Shown here piece after piece: positions 11,856 to 29,063 of a DNA stretch of 33,803 nt (positions are counted from its first letter, which is position 1; every line of letters starts with the position of its first letter). The position numbers and the translations under genes were made by a program. The notes beneath the pieces were generated by a model. That model was not told the origin of the DNA. It saw only the letters and a list, made by a program, of their open reading frames with translations, and did not search any database. The DNA lies in assembly GCA_027013815.1 (NCBI GenBank), contig JALWFY010000121.1, positions 1 to 33,803 of the forward strand. The letters are read 5' to 3'. This DNA is from Desulfohalobiaceae bacterium (GTDB lineage: Bacteria; Desulfobacterota; Desulfovibrionia; Desulfovibrionales; Desulfothermaceae).

Positions 11856-13453
11856 GTTTAAAGGACCTTCCTTGGCTCATTTATTGGGATAAAGAAAAAT
11901 GTCAACTTTGTGGTAGATGTGTGGCTGCATGTCCAGTAAGGGCAATTGAACTTGGAACATTTAGAAAAAGGATCGTTGAAACTCCAATTAATAATAAAAA
12001 AGCCCACTCAAATGTATATAAAGTATTTTATGGGATAAAACAAAAGGCAGATCCTGCCCATGCATGTATTGGATGCGGCCTTTGTTCAAAGGTGTGCCCC
12101 AATGATGCAATTATACCTTATCACAATGAGGAGGTAGACAAACTAAGGTTCCACATAAATTTAGGTGGTCAACCAAGGAGAAGAGGGGGGAGGAGAAATG
12201 ATCCAGGGACATTGTTAGACAGGATCAAATTCATCCGTATCTCCATGTTAACAGACCCTGCCCTTGATGCTGGAAGACATGAATTTGAACTCAGGACACT
12301 CCTTGGTCGGGTACTTCCACCAGAAGAAAACCTAAGACTATACAAAGAAGAGGGTTGGACACCACCTGTTAGGGAAATCTACCCCCTTGTGATTGGAGGT
12401 ATGTCCTTTGGTGCCCTGTCCCCGAATATGTGGGAAGGCTTGGTCATGGGGGTTACTTATTTAAACGAAGAATTGGGTATGCCTGTTAGGATGTGTACAG
12501 GAGAGGGGGGATGTCCCCCAAGGCTTTTGAGATCCAGGTTCTTAAAATATATAATATTGCAAATTGCCAGTGGATATTTTGGATGGGATGAGATTATACA
12601 TGCAATCCCAGAGATGAAAGAAGACCCATGTGCCATTGAAATAAAATATGGTCAAGGAGCAAAGCCTGGAGACGGCGGACTCCTTATGTGGTATAAGGTG
12701 AATAAACTTATTGCTGCAATCAGGGGAGTCCCTCCTAGAGTAAATCTCCCAAGCCCACCAACCCATCAGACAAAATATTCCATAGAAGAATCCGTTGCCA
12801 AGATGATACAGTCCATGTATATGGCGTGGGGATTCAGGGTACCTGTTTATCCAAAGATATCAGGTACATCTACCGCCCTTGCTGTCTTGAATAATCTGAC
12901 TAGGAATCCTTATGCTGCTGCACTTTCCATTGATGGAGAAGATGGAGGTACAGGCGCTGCATATAATGTCTCCATGGACCATATGGGACATCCAATTGCA
13001 AGCAATGTAAGGGACTGTTATTTAAACCTAGTTAAATTAGGGAAACAAAATGAAATCCCAATATTTGGTGCTGGGGGAATAGGCAAGAGGGGAAATCTTG
13101 CTGCAAATGCTGCTGCCCTGATCATGCTTGGTGCAAGTGGGGTCCAGGTAGGGAAGTATATTATGCAGGCAGCAGCAGGTTGTGTTGGGTCTGAATCTGA
13201 TAGGTGTAATATTTGTAATATTGGACAATGCCCAAAGGGGATAACCTCTCAGGACCCACGCATATATAGACGACTTGATCCTGAAAAGGTGGCAGAAAGG
13301 CTAGTAGATGTGTTTATGGCCTTTGATACTGAACTGAAAAAGATCGTTGCCCCACTTGGCAGGTCCACGTCTCTACCCATTGGTATGTCTGATGCTTTGG
13401 GAATTGATGACTACCATGCAGCAGAAAGGTTAAAAATAAAATACGTGGTCTGA
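11819..13453 (+). CDS. Glutamate synthase, FMN/iron-sulfur central subunit (GltB2-type)
   Basis: This is the catalytic subunit that reduces 2-oxoglutarate plus ammonia to glutamate, 544 residues. An N-terminal ferredoxin-like part has two 4Fe-4S motifs: Cys28/31/34/38 (CQLCGRCVAACP) and Cys83/86/89/93 (CIGCGLCSKVCP). The TIM-barrel FMN domain follows, with VIGGMSFGALSP, YGQGAKPGDGGLL, GEDGGTGAA and GGIGKRGNLAANAAALIML. CNICNIGQCPKGI supplies the cysteines of the 3Fe-4S cluster of the family. The start is GTG 11819 inside the end of the previous gene; AAGGAGG at 11805-11811 supports it and implies coupled translation. The enzyme probably takes electrons through the ferredoxin-like part from the third subunit. 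Confidence 0.9.
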   Translation: MFSNGPITPSQLSLKDLPWLIYWDKEKCQLCGRCVAACPVRAIELGTFRKRIVETPINNKKAHSNVYKVFYGIKQKADPAHACIGCGLCSKVCPNDAIIPYHNEEVDKLRFHINLGGQPRRRGGRRNDPGTLLDRIKFIRISMLTDPALDAGRHEFELRTLLGRVLPPEENLRLYKEEGWTPPVREIYPLVIGGMSFGALSPNMWEGLVMGVTYLNEELGMPVRMCTGEGGCPPRLLRSRFLKYIILQIASGYFGWDEIIHAIPEMKEDPCAIEIKYGQGAKPGDGGLLMWYKVNKLIAAIRGVPPRVNLPSPPTHQTKYSIEESVAKMIQSMYMAWGFRVPVYPKISGTSTALAVLNNLTRNPYAAALSIDGEDGGTGAAYNVSMDHMGHPIASNVRDCYLNLVKLGKQNEIPIFGAGGIGKRGNLAANAAALIMLGASGVQVGKYIMQAAAGCVGSESDRCNICNIGQCPKGITSQDPRIYRRLDPEKVAERLVDVFMAFDTELKKIVAPLGRSTSLPIGMSDALGIDDYHAAERLKIKYVV

Positions 13454-13597
13454 TGAAGGGTGAAGTATGAAGGATGAAGGGTGAATACAGATCACTAATC
13501 ACTAATAAAAGTGAACTGTGAAAAACTGTGAACCGTGAATAGTAGTTTTTAATTCAAAATTCAAAATCCATAATTCAAAATTATTATAAAAATAATA
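13454..13597 (+). repeat. Degenerate heptamer arrays inside the glutamate synthase operon
   Basis: Starting at the gltB2 stop codon, units of the TGAAGGG/TGAAGTA/TGAAGGA kind follow one another, then GTGAACTGTGAAAAACTGTG and CGTGAATAG, then ATTCAAAA units (13551-13582). The same unit types fill the 22.6-28.5 kb island. The run is non-coding and separates genes that are otherwise tightly packed. Confidence 0.7.
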
Positions 13598-22859: not shown

Positions 22860-23480
22860 ATGTCTGAAGAAAAAAAGGAAATATTTCCCCAAGAGATTCA
22901 AACATTAATAGCAGGAATATTTCCAAATACAAAATTTTTTGAGACCAAGTTTGAGAATTTGCAGATGCAGATTGATATGTTGAGGAGAACGCAGGAAGAT
23001 TTTAAAGAGGAAATGAGGGATCTGAGACAAGATATGAATTATAGGTTCCTGCAAGTAGATAAAAGGTTTGAACAGGTAGACAAGAGATTTTCAGAGATGA
23101 AAGAGGATATGAATGCGAGATTTGCTGAGGTTGATAGAAGATTTTCTGAAATGAAAGAGGACATAGACAGAAGATTTGCAATGGTTGATGAAAGATTTGA
23201 GCAGGTAGATAAGAGATTTGAGCAGGTAGATAAGAGATTTGAGCAGATTGATAAAAGATTTGAGCAAGTAGACAAGAGATTTGAACAGGTAGATAAAAGA
23301 TTTGAGCAGGTAGATAAAAGGTTTGAGCAAATAATAGCATCAATAGATAGGCTTTCTGATAAGTTAGATAAAAGGGACACAGAACATAGAAATTTCACAT
23401 TAAAGATGTTTTCAATTTCAATAGGGATATCAATCTTAGGAGTTTTAGGAGCATTTTTAAAAACAATGGGAGTGTTTTAA
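22860..23480 (+). CDS. Tail-anchored coiled-coil protein with RFEQVDK heptads, copy 1
   Basis: This is a 206-residue protein of unknown function. The N-terminus (1-64) is charged and helical. Residues about 65-156 are a perfect chain of units beginning RF: heptads such as RFEQVDK and two hendecads RFSEMKEDMNA and RFSEMKEDIDR, 92 residues in all. Phe and the Val/Ile three residues later form the a/d stripe of a coiled coil. After RFEQIIASIDRLSDKLDKRD comes a C-terminal hydrophobic helix (about 180-202), so it is probably a membrane-anchored rod with its body in the cytosol. GGAGGAGC lies before the ATG. A near-identical shorter copy starts at 26122. The layout recalls repeat proteins such as Borrelia Bdr and DUF1640-like proteins; no homology is claimed. 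Confidence 0.8.
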   Translation: MSEEKKEIFPQEIQTLIAGIFPNTKFFETKFENLQMQIDMLRRTQEDFKEEMRDLRQDMNYRFLQVDKRFEQVDKRFSEMKEDMNARFAEVDRRFSEMKEDIDRRFAMVDERFEQVDKRFEQVDKRFEQIDKRFEQVDKRFEQVDKRFEQVDKRFEQIIASIDRLSDKLDKRDTEHRNFTLKMFSISIGISILGVLGAFLKTMGVF

Positions 23481-23484
23481 ATTA

Positions 23485-23518
23485 GGGTGAACTGTGAATG
23501 GTGAACGGTGAACTGTGA
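23485..23518 (+). repeat. GTGAACT/GTGAACG heptamer array after coiled-coil gene 1
   Basis: Four to five tandem 7-bp units (GTGAACT, GTGAATG, GTGAACG, GTGAACT, GTGATAG) begin 5 bases after the stop codon. The last bases of the gene and ATTAGG before the array are the same after copy 2. Confidence 0.8.
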
Positions 23519-23572
23519 TAGGAACGAATAGTTACCCTGGTAAATTCATATATGATGTTAAAGAGAGTGGTT

Positions 23573-25114
23573 ATGAAAAAACTTCCAATAGGTATACAGA
23601 CATTTAGTGAGATTATTCAAGAAAATTATTACTATGTGGATAAAACAGAATTTGCATACAAGCTTATAACAAGGGGTAAGTATTATTTTCTCTCACGACC
23701 GCGACGCTTTGGCAAATCTCTTTTTCTTGATACACTTGCAGAGATATTTTCAGGCAACAAAGAACTATTCAAAAGATTGTATATTTATGACAAGTATGAT
23801 TTTTCTCCTCATCCAGTTATAAGAATCTCGTTTGGTAGTGGAGATTATTCCTTAGATGAAAACCAGACAATTGATGAGATAAAACACATATTAGAGGACA
23901 ACTTAGACGCTTTAGGTTTAGAATGTAAGGATATAGGAGATTTTAAAAACTGTTTTAAACAACTCATAAGAAAAGCTCATCTCAAATACAATCAAAGAGT
24001 TGTCATTTTGATAGATGAATATGACAAACCCATTTTAGATAACATTACCAACCAAGATAAGGCTATAAAAGCAAGAAGCATACTGAAAAATTTTTATAGC
24101 ATAATCAAAGACAATGATAGATATATTAAATTTGTCTTTATTACAGGAGTATCAAAATTTTCCAAATTGAATCTATTTAGTGGATTGAACAATCTAGAAG
24201 ATATCACTATAAATAAAGAATATGCAGAGATATGTGGCTATACTCATGATGATTTACTAATTGTTTTTAAAGATAAAATAAATAAAGTAAACATAGATTT
24301 GGTAAAAAAATGGTATAATGGCTACAATTATTTGGGCAAACCTTTATATAATCCCTTTGATATACTTTTGTTTCTCTCATCCGGTCATGATTTTAGAAAC
24401 TACTGGTGGCAAACAGGCAATCCATCATTTCTGATAGAGAAACTAAAAGAAGAAAACTGCTACATTCCTGAGCTTGAGAATGCCTTAATATCAGAGGAGG
24501 CATTGGAAGCCTTTGATGTTGAGTATATAGACCTAAGGGCACTGCTATGGCAGACGGGGTATTTGACTATCAATGATAAACTAACAGATGACACAGGTAG
24601 TAACATGTATAGATTGTCTGTTCCCAACCTTGAGGTTCAGTTCTCTCTAAATAGACTCTTTATAGATTATCTTACTAATCAAAGAATAGAAAAGACTAGA
24701 TACGAGTTTAATATAAAAAATGCCTTAAAAGAAAATGACTTTGAATCATTTATAAATCACCTAAAGACCATCTTTGCAACTATTCCCTATACCAACTATG
24801 CAAACAACATAATATCTAAGTATGAGGGATATTATAATAGTGTCATCTTTGTGTATTTAATGGCACTTGGCTATGAGGTGATACCAGAGGATATAACCAA
24901 TAAAGGAAGGATAGATTTAACAATAAAGACAAAAGATAAGATATTGATAATAGAGTTTAAAGTAGATGTAGAAAAAGAAAAGCCCATATATCAGATAAAG
25001 CAGAGGAGATATTTTGAGAAATATTTAAGTGAAAACAAAGAAGTTTATTTAATAGGCATATCTTTTAATAGTGAAGAAAGAAATATAGTAGATTATGAAA
25101 TAGAGAAGATATAA
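23573..25114 (+). CDS. AAA-ATPase-like protein with C-terminal PD-(D/E)XK nuclease domain
   Basis: This 513-residue protein has the layout of the AAA-ATPase_like / PDDEXK_9 family. It starts MKKLPIGIQTFSEIIQENYY, typical for the family, so ATG 23573 is preferred over 23552. The nucleotide loop is FLSRPRRFGKSLF (variant Walker A) and VVILIDEYDKPILD is Walker B. The C-terminal domain has GYEVIPEDITNKGRIDLTI and ILIIEFKVD, giving the Asp...Glu-x-Lys nuclease core. These genes are often multicopy and strain-specific; roles in DNA mobility or defence are proposed but unproven. Ends at a heptamer array and has no operon partner. Confidence 0.88.
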   Translation: MKKLPIGIQTFSEIIQENYYYVDKTEFAYKLITRGKYYFLSRPRRFGKSLFLDTLAEIFSGNKELFKRLYIYDKYDFSPHPVIRISFGSGDYSLDENQTIDEIKHILEDNLDALGLECKDIGDFKNCFKQLIRKAHLKYNQRVVILIDEYDKPILDNITNQDKAIKARSILKNFYSIIKDNDRYIKFVFITGVSKFSKLNLFSGLNNLEDITINKEYAEICGYTHDDLLIVFKDKINKVNIDLVKKWYNGYNYLGKPLYNPFDILLFLSSGHDFRNYWWQTGNPSFLIEKLKEENCYIPELENALISEEALEAFDVEYIDLRALLWQTGYLTINDKLTDDTGSNMYRLSVPNLEVQFSLNRLFIDYLTNQRIEKTRYEFNIKNALKENDFESFINHLKTIFATIPYTNYANNIISKYEGYYNSVIFVYLMALGYEVIPEDITNKGRIDLTIKTKDKILIIEFKVDVEKEKPIYQIKQRRYFEKYLSENKEVYLIGISFNSEERNIVDYEIEKI

Positions 25115-25143
25115 AACTGTGAACTGTGAAGGGTGAAGGGGAG
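25115..25143 (+). repeat. Heptamer array after the AAA-ATPase/nuclease gene
   Basis: GTGAACT, GTGAAGG, GTGAAGG units begin 4 bases after the stop codon and lead directly into a copy of the four-helix gene 5' end. Confidence 0.75.
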
Positions 25144-25147
25144 AAGG

Positions 25148-25210
25148 ATGGATCATAAAGATTTGGATGGATGGAAAAGGGGGTTTTTATTTGAATTAAA
25201 ACGTTTTTAA
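25148..25210 (+). pseudogene. Truncated copy of the four-helix-bundle gene 5' end
   Basis: The first 10 codons (MDHKDLDGWK) match the start of the gene at 27940 (MDHKDLDVWK). The DNA match also covers the AAGG before the ATG and stops after about 34 bases. The frame then runs RGFLFELKRF to a stop. As at 27940, a GTGAA heptamer array lies just upstream. Confidence 0.7.
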
Positions 25211-25826: not shown

Positions 25827-26007
25827 ATCCTAGAAATAGTTAAATTATTTTACAGAGGTGAACCTAGGGCTAAAGGCTAAAGAAAATGAACAGTAAACTG
25901 TGAACAGTGAACTGTAAGTTGTGAAGGGGGGTGTAATAAAGGCTAAGGGCTAAGGGATGAGTAAAAGAGGTTTTAAGAGACTTTAGGTCTGGCAAAAGAG
26001 TGAGGAA
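25827..26007 (+). repeat. Mixed heptamer arrays between 25.83 and 26.0 kb
   Basis: This gap holds GGGCTAAAGGCTAAAG (25868-25883), GTAAACTGTGAACAGTGAAC (25892-25911) and GGCTAAGGGCTAAGGG (25941-25956). The two unit families (GTGAACx and GGCTAAA) lie side by side. No gene is seen. Confidence 0.7.
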
Positions 26008-26037
26008 TTGACTGTTTATATGTATCGGTTATATATA
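26008..26037 (+). promoter_or_regulatory. Candidate sigma-70 promoter of coiled-coil gene 2
   Basis: TTGACT (26008-26013), an 18-base spacer and TATATA (26032-26037) give a plausible promoter about 85 bases before the ATG at 26122. Confidence 0.45.
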
Positions 26038-26121
26038 TCAGGTCTCGAATAACGAATCTTTTTAATAGGTTACACTAATAATAAAAAAAGAGACTTAAAT
26101 AACATAATTAGGGAGCAAAAG

Positions 26122-26604
26122 ATGTCTGAAGAAAAAAAGGAAATGTTTCCCCAAGAGATTCAAACCCTAATAGCAGGGATATTTCCAAATACAAAATTCT
26201 TTGAGACCAAGTTTGAGAATTTACAGATGCAGATTGATATGTTGAGGAGAACGCAAGAAGATTTTAAAGAGGAAATGAGAGATTTAAAACAGGATATGAA
26301 TTATAGGTTCCTGCAAGTAGATAAAAGGTTTGAACAGGTTGATAAAAGATTTTCAGAGATGAAGGAAGATATTGACAGAAGATTTGAGCAAGTTGACAAA
26401 AGATTTGAGCAAGTTGACAGAAGATTTGAGCAGGTAGATAAAAGGTTTGAGCAAATAATAGCATCAATAGATAGGCTTTCTGATAAGTTAGATAAAAGGG
26501 ACACAGAGCATAGAAATTTCACATTAAAGATGTTTTCAATTTCAATAGGGATATCAATCTTAGGAGTTTTAGGAGCATTTTTAAAAACAATGGGAGTGTT
26601 TTAA
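26122..26604 (+). CDS. Tail-anchored coiled-coil protein with RFEQVDK heptads, copy 2
   Basis: This 160-residue paralogue of the protein at 22860 has almost the same N-terminus (65 residues) and C-terminal tail and membrane helix. The central repeat is 46 residues (five heptads and one hendecad) against 92 in copy 1, exactly half, so whole units were gained or lost and the coiled-coil phase is kept. DNA identity outside the repeat is very high, which implies recent duplication or gene conversion. GGGAGC lies before the ATG; a separate promoter is likely. Function unknown. Confidence 0.8.
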   Translation: MSEEKKEMFPQEIQTLIAGIFPNTKFFETKFENLQMQIDMLRRTQEDFKEEMRDLKQDMNYRFLQVDKRFEQVDKRFSEMKEDIDRRFEQVDKRFEQVDRRFEQVDKRFEQIIASIDRLSDKLDKRDTEHRNFTLKMFSISIGISILGVLGAFLKTMGVF

Positions 26605-26608
26605 ATTA

Positions 26609-26750
26609 GGGTGAACGGTGAACTGTGAACTGTGAACGGTGAAGGGTGAAGGATGTAAAGGCTAAAGGCATAAGGCAAAAGGCTAAAGGGGATAGAGGCT
26701 GTAGAGGTTGTATAAGGGGTAAAGGGCGTAGAAGGCGTAGAGGGGGGAGT
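26609..26750 (+). repeat. Three kinds of short-unit arrays after coiled-coil gene 2
   Basis: First GTGAACG/GTGAACT/GTGAAGG units (26610-26652), then AAGGCTAAAGGCATAAGGC and similar (about 26657-26690), then GGCGTAGAAGGCGTAGAG (26725-26742). All are G-rich on the + strand. The first array begins a few bases after the stop codon. Confidence 0.78.
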
Positions 26751-26753
26751 TAG

Positions 26754-26830
26754 TTATGGTTAGTTGCGGAAGAAACTAACCCGTAACTAAACAATGAACT
26801 AACCTGTAATTAACCCGCAACTAACCATAA
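26754..26830. repeat. Perfect 16-bp inverted repeat before the archaeal-type ATPase gene
   Basis: TTATGGTTAGTTGCGG (26754-26769) is the exact reverse complement of CCGCAACTAACCATAA (26815-26830). The 45-bp loop holds AACTAACCCGT-like direct repeats. It could be a leader hairpin or the end of an inserted unit. Confidence 0.7.
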
Positions 26831-26852: not shown

Positions 26853-27896
26853 ATGCCTTTTTATGATCGAGAGGAAGATAAAAGGCGGATGAAGGCGGTG
26901 CTCAGTGGGGAGCCGAACCTTGTTTATTTTGTGTATGGTCCGATCAACAGCGGGAAGACGGCGTTATTGATGAGGGTATTTGAGGAACTGCCCGAGGAAT
27001 ATCGGGTGTTTTATATAAATTTTCGGTGGAGGTATGTAGGAGAAGTAAGGGATTTAATTCAGGTACTTTTTAGAGTGAAAGGGAAAAAGGAGAAGCTTTC
27101 TGTATTTTTGGAGAAGGCTCTAAAAGGCGGAGCAAAGTTGTTTGAGAAGCTTGGCGGGATACCAATACCCGAAGAGGTTTTTGATTTACTTTTCAGGCGG
27201 ACAGAGAGGGCAGAAGATGTATTTGCCTTTTTAAAGGATTATTTTAGTTTAGTGGTTGAGAAAGGGTATAAGCCAGTATTTGTGTTAGATGAGATGCAGA
27301 CCATAAAGGAAGTAATAAACACAGCGGGTAAGCCAGTAATTCATGAGCTATTTAATTTTCTTGTTGGTCTAACAAAGGAGACACACTTGTGTCACTCACT
27401 TTGTGCGACGAGTGATTGTTTGTTTATAGAGGATGTTTATAGTAATGCGAGGCTTGAGGGCAGGGCGGAATATATTTTAGTAGATGATTTGTCGAAAGAG
27501 AAAGCCTTTGAGGTTTATGAGGAGTTTGGTTTTAGAGAGAAAGAGAGAGTATGGGAATATATAGGTGGAAAGTTTGGAGATATGATAAGGCTTTATGAGA
27601 AGGAAAAAAGTGGCCTAGAGGAAGGGGAGGCCTTAGAGGAGCTATGGCGAGATGAGGTTGGGAAATTGAGGATGATAGAAGGAGATATTTTTGAGAGGTA
27701 CGAGGAAGCCGAAGCCCTTTGGGAGTATTTGGGAAAATTTGGGGAAGTTTGGGAGCGTCCTGTGAGTATCAGGAAGGAGAAGAAGTTCATGTTTTTTTGG
27801 GTAGATAAGAACATTTTATTTTACAACCCGGTGAGGGGCACAATCAGGCCGCAGGGGAGGCTGATCCAGAGGGCGATAGGGGAGATAGTGAAATAA
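26853..27896 (+). CDS. Archaeal-type P-loop ATPase
   Basis: This 347-residue protein starts MPFYDREEDKRRMKAVLSGE and has Walker A VYGPINSGKTALL (about 26-38) and Walker B PVFVLDEMQTI (about 145-155). The overall form (N-terminal ATPase, helical C-terminal part with a winged-helix-like end) fits the archaeal ATPase family (ATPase_2) common in hyperthermophiles and some thermophilic bacteria. AGGAG precedes the ATG. It uses more G+C and more CGG codons than its neighbours, a sign of transfer. It is framed by an inverted repeat upstream and a heptamer array that begins at its stop codon. Function in this family is not established. Confidence 0.8.
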   Translation: MPFYDREEDKRRMKAVLSGEPNLVYFVYGPINSGKTALLMRVFEELPEEYRVFYINFRWRYVGEVRDLIQVLFRVKGKKEKLSVFLEKALKGGAKLFEKLGGIPIPEEVFDLLFRRTERAEDVFAFLKDYFSLVVEKGYKPVFVLDEMQTIKEVINTAGKPVIHELFNFLVGLTKETHLCHSLCATSDCLFIEDVYSNARLEGRAEYILVDDLSKEKAFEVYEEFGFREKERVWEYIGGKFGDMIRLYEKEKSGLEEGEALEELWRDEVGKLRMIEGDIFERYEEAEALWEYLGKFGEVWERPVSIRKEKKFMFFWVDKNILFYNPVRGTIRPQGRLIQRAIGEIVK

Positions 27897-27932
27897 GTGA
27901 ACTGTGAACGGTGAACTGTGAACTGTGAGTGG
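27897..27932 (+). repeat. Heptamer array between the ATPase and four-helix genes
   Basis: Five tandem units (GTGAACT, GTGAACG, GTGAACT, GTGAACT, GTGAGTG) begin 1-2 bases after the ATPase stop and run to the ribosome site of the next gene. Confidence 0.8.
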
Positions 27933-27939
27933 TAAAAGG

Positions 27940-28317
27940 ATGGATCATAAAGATTTAGATGTATGGAAATATAGTATAGATTTTGTGATGGATGTCTATA
28001 AAATTACATTGGATTTTCCAAGAGAAGAAGTTTACGGCTTAACAAGTCAAATAAAAAGGTCTGCAGTATCAGTGCCTTCTAATATTGCTGAAGGATTAGC
28101 CAGGCAGACAAAAAAAGAACAAATCCAGTTTTTGTATATAGCTTTAGGTTCATTGTCAGAATTAGAAACACAATTAATTATCTCTAAAAAACTGGGGTTT
28201 CTTCAAGAAACTGCTTATAATGATATGCAATTTAAAATAGAACGTATAAGAAAATTATTAACTGGTTTAATAAAATATCAGAAAAGAAGTCTAAAACGCG
28301 TGAACGGTGATCTGTGA
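27940..28317 (+). CDS. Four-helix-bundle protein (S23 / 23S rRNA intervening-sequence type)
   Basis: This 125-residue all-helical protein starts MDHKDLDVWKYSIDFVMDVY. SQIKRSAVSVPSNIAEGLAR is the family hallmark. Members are known from 23S rRNA intervening sequences and as free genes; the accessory protein Avd of diversity-generating retroelements has the same fold. ATG 27940 is chosen because MDHKDL is the usual start and is also kept in the truncated copy at 25148; an earlier in-frame GTG at 27925 lies in the repeat array. The last six codons (RVNGDL) and stop are made of GTGAACG-type repeat DNA, so the C-terminus was added or replaced by the array. No rRNA or reverse transcriptase is near. 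Confidence 0.85.
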   Translation: MDHKDLDVWKYSIDFVMDVYKITLDFPREEVYGLTSQIKRSAVSVPSNIAEGLARQTKKEQIQFLYIALGSLSELETQLIISKKLGFLQETAYNDMQFKIERIRKLLTGLIKYQKRSLKRVNGDL

Positions 28318-28448
28318 ACGGTGAACGGTGAAAAGTGAACGGACATGATGCGTGAATGGTAAACGGTGAACAGTGATTGGTGAAAGGTAAGGTAAAATGT
28401 AAATTTTGATGACAGCTTACAATTCACGGTTCACAGATCACAGTTCAC
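28300..28448. repeat. Long inverted repeat built of heptamers
   Basis: The arms 28300-28325 and 28423-28448 are reverse complements at 24 of 26 positions. The left arm covers the four-helix stop codon; the right arm (TTCACGG, TTCACAG units) is the only array in the window with the C-rich strand on +. The 97-bp loop holds more units (GTGAACG, GTGAATG, GTAAACG, GTGAACA). RNA from here could fold into a long hairpin just before the flippase fragment. Confidence 0.8.
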
Positions 28449-28470
28449 AGTTCACCATAAAGGAGATTTC

Positions 28471-28758
28471 ATGCTAACTAACCTTACGGCTAAATTTCGG
28501 GAAAAGCTGAACTCAGATACCCACTTTGCGGAGCTCATAAAGGGTTCTGGAATTGCTTTTGTTTTAAGGATTGTTGGAATAATCGCCGGGTACGTTTTCA
28601 CTCTGTTTGTTACGAGAACTCTAGGGGCAAAGGCCTGGGGGATTTTCGCTCTATCATTGGTTGTGCTTCAGATAGCTTCTGTTATTGGAAGGTTGGGGAT
28701 GGATACAGCTCTTTTGAGATTTACTGCTGAGTATACAGCGAAAGGGGAAAGTATTTAG
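28471..28758 (+). pseudogene. 5' fragment of a polysaccharide flippase (Wzx/MATE-like), A
   Basis: Ninety-five codons match the start of oligosaccharide flippases: two hydrophobic helices with IKGSGIAFVLRIVGIIAGY, VTRTLGAKAWGIFALSLVV and [15 protein letters not shown]. Full proteins have more than 400 residues and about 12-14 helices. The frame stops right after KGE, where a full gene would go on. AAAGGAG lies before ATG 28471. The stop (TAG) overlaps the GTG of a second flippase fragment by one base. G+C is higher than in the genes from 30.2 kb on. Confidence 0.78.
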
Positions 28759-29063
28759 TGGCAAGGAGAATTCTAAATATAAAACTTAGTGCTGATAAAA
28801 GGCGTCTTTTGGAAAACTTTTTTTCGCTATCGGTTCTTCAAGGCGCCAATTATATTCTTCCTTTAATTACTCTACGTTATTTTGTAAGAGTTTCAGGGCT
28901 TGAAAGGTTTGGGCTCAAAGCATTTGATCAAGCTTTTATTCAATATTTTAATATCCTAACAGATTATGGATTCAATTTGTCAGTTACAAGGGAAATTTCC
29001 ATATATCAAGAGAAAAAAATTGGTTGGCTTAATGGTCAACTTTTGGATATGTTAATAGAATAA
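28758..29063 (+). pseudogene. 5' fragment of a second polysaccharide flippase, B
   Basis: A 101-codon frame from GTG 28758 reads [40 protein letters not shown] and [10 protein letters not shown], the N-terminal region of a different flippase subfamily. It then diverges ([14 protein letters not shown]) and stops; the remaining roughly 300 residues are absent. GGGGAAAG precedes the GTG. Two different flippase 5' ends in tandem without 3' parts suggest repeated deletions or cassette exchange at this edge of the locus. Confidence 0.75.

Follow-up and report, generated by a model that had tools for sequence, protein, structure and literature searches.

How does a gene come to end in tandem heptamers that are complementary to an inverted array just beyond its stop codon? 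The question is raised by a 33,803-nucleotide (nt) contig of a Desulfohalobiaceae bacterium (GenBank assembly GCA_027013815.1, contig JALWFY010000121.1, forward strand; the whole stretch is hereafter called the window). An earlier note on this DNA, made from the sequence alone, took the gene end, the stop codon and the hairpin arm as one element that could act as terminator, structured RNA or recombination end. Our analysis indicates that positions 27897–28456 very probably hold an intact selfish mobile element, small in size and akin to the intervening sequences (IVSs) of 23S rRNA, lodged between protein genes of operons. The element comprises one S23-type four-helix gene in a stem whose arms are inverted tandem arrays of a single 7-bp (sometimes 8–9-bp) unit, and the same architecture recurs in several bacterial phyla. 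The gene belongs to PF05635, a widespread family named after rRNA IVSs, the function of which is not established.

The window gene encodes a 125-residue four-helix bundle protein of the S23, or 23S rRNA-intervening-sequence, type, which matches the PF05635 profile over residues 4–109 (E = 1.9e-40, 137.8 bits against a cut-off of 33.8) as well as TIGR02436 (E = 5.5e-39, score 132.7 against a cut-off of 24), and has relatives among solved structures (PDB 2gsc and 2rld). The layout of the element is array (+), four-helix gene, array (+) and array (−), beginning directly 3′ of the TAA stop of an ATPase gene and ending 14 bp 5′ of the ATG of a flippase-gene fragment (Table 1); the same-sense array across the 3′ end of the gene has an equal layout in the C38 copies L010, L014 and L015. 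As the earlier note had read them, the last codons (RVNGDL) and the TGA are built from GTGAACG-type units, the inverted array is the only reverse-oriented one of the window for the GTGAAC unit, and 28300–28325 is complementary to 28423–28448 at 24 of 26 positions. The RNA fold of 28290–28460 that it called for reaches −50.2 kcal/mol (z = −3.4, with none of 200 shuffles as good). The 28300 array is not, however, the specific partner of the inverted array: over the 38 positions of 28419–28456, the arrays at 26610 (33/38) and 27896–27933 (32/38) match better than 28299–28336 (30/38), and in a fold of 27885–28470 (−139.6 kcal/mol, z = −4.9, 0 of 100 shuffles as good) the inverted array is predicted to pair with the upstream array, 27897–27935. 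The single element that the note had proposed stands, but with its left boundary at 27897 and not 28290. The ATAA found on both sides of this intact copy is only suggestive of a target duplication.

Inverted array pairs, which the earlier note had proposed to look for after such genes, are present around them well beyond the window. We collected 101 non-redundant PF05635 loci from the same genome, its family, a sample of its phylum and genomes of other phyla, the last picked for holding GTGAACN arrays and the phylum sample not so picked, and scored each locus by the best local match between the 250 bp upstream of the gene and the reverse complement of the 400 bp downstream, calling arms at a score of 16 or more. 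Inverted arms were found at 74 of the 101 loci, against 1.0% of cross-locus pairs. The median score was 19.5 within loci and 9.0 across them, and 80 loci outscored all 20 of their random cross-locus partners (4.8 expected). Only 19 of the 101 loci reached the threshold in the same orientation, and 1 of 94 did so in a far-flank control about 1 kb away; around HepT (PF01934), the matched control family, inverted arms were found at 0 of 29 loci. Armed loci made up 13 of 14 in the genome and its family, 41 of 60 in the phylum sample and 20 of 27 in other phyla. Other PF05635 genes of the genome also lie between inverted short arrays, with other units (GTGATAG/GAGATAG, GTGGAATA, GGAGAAT and TTTTGGA).

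The 74 armed loci have an arm period of 7 in 55 cases, 8 in 11 and 9 in 7, and in 65 of them the upstream sense strand of the arm is the G-richer one. Arm similarity is 0.64 within a locus and 0.16 between loci, even where the proteins are 40–50% identical, so each copy has its own unit, common to its two arms. In minimum-energy RNA folds, the two arms are predicted to pair with each other for 66 of the 73 elements folded. Repeat-coded tails recur as well, the four-helix stop lying in or beside an array at 33 armed loci (24 in the inverted arm, 9 in or beside a same-sense array); chance would have been indicated by related genes bearing the same tail with no repeats nearby, whereas their tails differ and are made of different repeats. 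With a ratio of nonsynonymous to synonymous substitution rates (dN/dS) of 0.08–0.14 between diverged copies, the four-helix protein is under purifying selection and has therefore been maintained while copies spread. Decay is common all the same, in the form of four-helix fragments and internal stops. A tblastn search with the four-helix protein gave no match in phages.

Mobility is visible at sites that are occupied in one replicon and empty in another. On cyanobacterial plasmids that are about 97% identical, the site is occupied in Trichormus variabilis (plasmid C) and Scytonema NIES-4073 and empty in Aulosira laxa and Tolypothrix PCC 7601; the insert of about 430 bp sits immediately 3′ of a TAA stop and has GTAAT on either side, such that the empty sequence AAAAAGTAATTAACAAAT becomes AAAAAGTAAT/AAATCAGAATTCAGG...ACTCCTGAGTTCTTCTTT/GTAATTAACAAAT. 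A decayed copy, consisting of an array and a four-helix fragment, occupies the Trichormus/Scytonema site in Nostoc C052. In a three-gene operon of Nostoc plasmids, the A–B junction is occupied in pNsp_a and pNPM1, the B–C junction holds a different element in pNsp_c, and both are empty in pNsp_b and pC052_B. Further occupied and empty pairs come from Calothrix brevissima against Aulosira/Tolypothrix, Picosynechococcus PCC 7003 against 7002, and Nostoc edaphicum against Calothrix NIES-4105, and nrdB–nrdA is also among such junctions. Elements 78–81% identical over about 418 bp are found at three unrelated sites (L385, L404 and L410). The pNsp_c plasmid carries, between TraM and a hypothetical gene, a version with long arms and no open reading frame (ORF), and a four-helix gene of plasmid pNPM1 from Nostoc N6 contains a nested insert of another kind, with repeat arms and a GC-rich inner hairpin (L411 700–1085).

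The elements fit closely between genes that are read in the same direction. In 65 of the 74 armed loci, a long frame on the same strand terminates close to the left arm, mostly within about 10 bp of the arm edge, and the next gene mostly starts 0–30 bp past the right arm; co-directional neighbours outnumber the others by 51 to 5 upstream and 53 to 6 downstream. Host junctions include gmd–fcl, cas10–cmr3, cas6–cas4, nrdB–nrdA (where the element is antisense), integrase–hypothetical and TraM–hypothetical. At gmd–fcl, the junction is occupied in two genomes, with different units, and free of a four-helix bundle gene in the other genomes examined. An array-like stretch within the fcl gene of L009 was considered as an in-frame insertion and dropped, because an orthologue with 71% identity (L356) is equally long there. 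An 'insulator' design, with stops in all frames of the upstream arms and open downstream arms, was unconvincing (stop densities 0.082 versus 0.062; 35 versus 25 loci).

Could such loci arise without mobility? Ordinary heptanucleotide microsatellites, expanded by slippage in intergenic DNA like the short tandemly repeated repetitive (STRR) sequences, might have caught the four-helix gene as an unrelated passenger: GTGAACN arrays occur in at least 120 stretches from many phyla, arrays without a four-helix gene are common, including solo arrays in the window and at cas6–cas4 of L392, and array copy number differs between L385 and L401. Yet two inverted arrays 400 bp apart with one common unit are not a product of slippage, which also cannot place arrays around one protein family and not around HepT, and the joint loss of gene and arms at empty sites is beyond it. 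This explanation is strongly disfavoured, and we consider it very improbable. A module kept for the benefit of the host, in which hairpin and gene form an intercistronic regulator or insulator (a terminator, RNase III site or mRNA stabiliser), would suit the tight fit between co-directional genes, the strong predicted stem and the conserved protein. But occupancy is sporadic at any one junction, as at gmd–fcl, decay is frequent, the host genes on either side are unrelated, and the sequence of the stem is not conserved, which makes such a module improbable as well. No T-run follows the window stem 3′, and with neighbours that are mostly co-directional the terminator role offered by the earlier note is unsupported. 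Of its three proposals, 'recombination end' comes nearest, given that a mobile element has the two arms as its ends, and the note's interpretation as a whole is partly supported.

Two further explanations concern how the element would move. In one, a non-autonomous DNA transposon resembling miniature inverted-repeat transposable elements (MITEs) would be moved by a resident transposase that reads hairpin shape in place of a fixed end sequence; inverted ends, one clean 5-bp duplication, ORF-less and nested copies and the lack of conserved end sequence all speak for it. It leaves the purifying selection on the four-helix gene unexplained, and a partner transposase was not identified, no search aimed at a partner transposon having been made; we regard it as possible, while leaning against it. 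In the other, the hairpin transcript would be cut out, a reverse transcriptase acting in trans would copy it with the four-helix protein as an Avd-like cofactor, and the copy would be inserted. The strong sense-strand bias, the excision of IVS RNA by RNase III (PMC4990558) and the relationship of the family to the Avd accessory proteins of diversity-generating retroelements, which have a homologous four-helix fold (PMC10053308; the bAvd profile, PF22296, matches below its cut-off), agree with this route. However, RVT_1 matches (E ≤ 1e-15) occur in only 14 of the 42 genomes that have four-helix genes and in 6 of the 37 that lack them, so such a reverse transcriptase is not generally available, and the GTAAT duplication suggests staggered DNA cuts. 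Dependence on a reverse transcriptase was rejected on the RVT_1 counts, and the RNA-mediated route as a whole appears unlikely. The window also differs from a diversity-generating retroelement in that the window genes tested gave no reverse-transcriptase match; the only RVT_1 match of the genome is on contig C137, where a diverged Avd-like four-helix gene is directly followed by a reverse transcriptase (L021, G000:C137:5729-6773). This locus is probably a diversity-generating retroelement of the genome and, being without heptamer arms, serves as an internal negative control.

Several observations weigh against a mobile IVS-like element. Roughly one in four PF05635 loci has missing or unclear arms. 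Among the target duplications, only GTAAT is clean: TTCTA is ambiguous and perhaps partly array sequence, a partial one (ATG/TAATG) has only the 3 bp ATG, and a test for duplications at the array edges of the 74 loci gave no signal (mean 3.09 versus 3.00 shuffled), the edges being too fuzzy. An empty site for the window's own locus was sought in the genus and none was found. No mobilising enzyme is known, and the element encodes no recognisable transposase. Finally, the Coxiella S23 protein is reported to be apparently not made in vivo (PMC4990558).

The closest known counterparts are the rRNA IVSs with an S23-family protein, stem-loops of about 430 nt that RNase III cuts from 23S rRNA and for which horizontal acquisition has been inferred (PMC4990558); that of Coxiella burnetii measures 428 nt with a 28-bp stem (PMC4990558). 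Mobility of ORF-bearing IVSs was proposed by Ralph and McClelland in 1993, as cited in PMC4990558, and the family also occurs in rRNA insertions of Candidate Phyla Radiation bacteria (PMC11270868). Our elements share with the IVSs of Leptospira and C. burnetii the PF05635 protein, a similar size and an ORF in a stem closed by inverted repeats. Unlike these, the window element is not in a 23S or 16S rRNA gene but has an ATPase gene on one side and a flippase-gene fragment on the other, and protein genes likewise flank the other elements examined; the stems are tandem arrays of 7–8-bp units that differ per locus, and occupied and empty sites are seen. Whereas IVS RNA is cut by RNase III, the elements described here are known from sequence and predicted RNA folds. 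By analogy, they would be the same kind of selfish stem-loop as the rRNA IVSs, placed in operons.

The arms alone resemble repeats of other kinds. Cyanobacterial STRRs are heptanucleotide direct repeats. Like these and the TAACTGA heptanucleotide repeats of marine Beggiatoaceae (MacGregor 2015, PMC4679880), the arms are intergenic 7-bp tandem units, phylogenetically scattered and touching gene starts and ends, a likeness that covers the arms and not the whole element; the four-helix gene and the paired inverted arms are not reported for the Beggiatoaceae repeats (PMC4679880). Solo arrays in our material look like remnants, at least in part, of armed elements. The short length, the terminal inverted repeats, the ORF-less derivative (L406) and the nesting (L411) are shared with MITEs and other elements with terminal inverted repeats, from which our elements differ in having a locus-specific tandem array for ends, not a conserved sequence, and an ORF under purifying selection. 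We know of no parent transposon for them (none was sought). A literature search that took in few subscription journals, on the S23/four-helix family together with repeats or mobility, returned no description of this association. We found no previous account of an element built in this way.

How might such an IVS-like element persist? Transcription of the host operon would carry it, with which the sense-strand bias is consistent, and the folded transcript may be tolerated or, by analogy, cut like IVS RNA. The four-helix protein, with a predicted binding role, could bind the hairpin and aid the spread of the element. MacGregor speculated that a repeat-binding protein could itself be a mobile element (PMC4679880), and a heptamer-binding protein fits the elements described here, with binding being a prediction. 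Arms would drift through slippage and be kept alike by copying between the two strands of the hairpin, which fits inverted arms with a private unit. As the element is without a recognisable transposase, the cutting and joining enzyme must act in trans. With slightly less than even confidence, we propose that these are an undescribed class of mobile elements, S23 'heptamer-stem' elements of about 420–560 bp, for which the element's own four-helix protein would be the mobility factor, hairpin shape would be recognised over end sequence, insertion would occur at operon stop/start junctions with a short duplication, and arms would be rebuilt by slippage and strand-to-strand copying into a private unit per copy.

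How rRNA IVSs spread has been a question for some 30 years. Should S23 genes be the cargo of mobile hairpins that insert into operons, three matters would be joined: what the S23 protein does, where rRNA IVSs come from, and some of the so far unexplained intergenic heptamer repeats of cyanobacteria, Bacteroidetes and other groups. If the 'heptamer-stem' class holds, its footprints would include many of the solo heptamer arrays found in bacterial genomes. The clean empty and occupied pairs of Nostoc, Trichormus and Picosynechococcus plasmids offer systems for studying movement and RNA processing. For annotation, the elements are a warning that arrays can encode the tails of neighbouring genes as well as extensions at their N termini. 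At L192, L211 and L371, the inverted arm is in frame with the next gene (an epimerase, an ABC transporter and a fucose synthase) and appears to supply or extend its N terminus, so these annotated N termini may be array-coded. In the type I-D CRISPR (clustered regularly interspaced short palindromic repeats) operons of three cyanobacterial plasmids (L388, L392 and L393), the cas6–cas4 junction holds heptamer arrays that differ from plasmid to plasmid. A four-helix gene accompanies the array in two of them, and the array of L392 is a solo one; the junction is either a hot spot or the site of one old insertion with rewritten arms.

Table 1. Features of the element and related repeats in the window
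Feature	Positions	Strand	Basis or remark
ATAA; contains the TAA stop of the ATPase gene that precedes the element	27893–27896		Same letters as 28457–28460; putative left-hand copy of a target duplication
Left arm of about five GTGAACx units, abutting the stop codon of the gene before it	27897–27935	+	Pairs with 28419–28456 in the RNA fold
Four-helix (S23) gene; final codons RVNGDL and TGA (28315–28317) in repeat units	27940–28317	+	PF05635 and TIGR02436 profiles
Same-sense GTGAACx array across the 3′ end of the gene, inside the element (the arm named in the earlier note)	28300–28388	+	Sequence
Right arm and right end of the element, reverse-oriented GTGAACx array	28419–28456	−	Complementarity and RNA fold
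ATAA	28457–28460		Candidate right copy of a target duplication
Decayed copy: array and first ~12 codons of a second four-helix gene (MDHKDLDGWK...)	25115–25180	+	25115–25177 is 86% identical to 27907–27969
Decayed copy: GTGAACx array and four-helix-like fragment with stops (SKRGFKRL*VWQKSEELTVYMYRLYISGLE*)	25886–26056	+	Assigned by eye
Solo GTGAACx array without a four-helix gene, just 3′ of the stop of 26122–26604	26610–26650	+	Sequence
Solo GTGAACx array just 3′ of the stop of 22860–23480	23486–23518	+	Sequence

Elsewhere in the window, the GTGAACx unit is found 3′ of stop codons at 23486, 25115, 25886 and 26610, as at 27897, and the decayed copy at 25115 starts directly after the stop of the frame 23552–25114. 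Of the 13 GTGAACNGTGAAC sites in the whole 2.6-Mb genome, 9 are in this contig, within 23.5–28.5 kb. From their sequence, the arrays and relics of the window look as though a single element lineage had spread and decayed locally.

Three observations concern neighbouring parts of the window. The genes at 22860–23480 and 26122–26604 both encode coiled coils and contain 21-bp repeats that keep the frame and are alike in sequence (GATAAAAGATTTGAGCA), and each has a GTGAACx array within about 7 bp after its stop. Immediately past the element, 28471–29063 holds two consecutive frames, each matching only the N-terminal ~80 positions of Polysacc_synt (PF01943), and these are remnants of two flippase genes. 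Other short tandem arrays, with the units GATGAAG, AATTCAA and TAAAGGC together with a AACTAACCCGT array that has a reverse counterpart just upstream, are found at 13452–13582 and 26656–26826 and may be what is left of further elements of this type.
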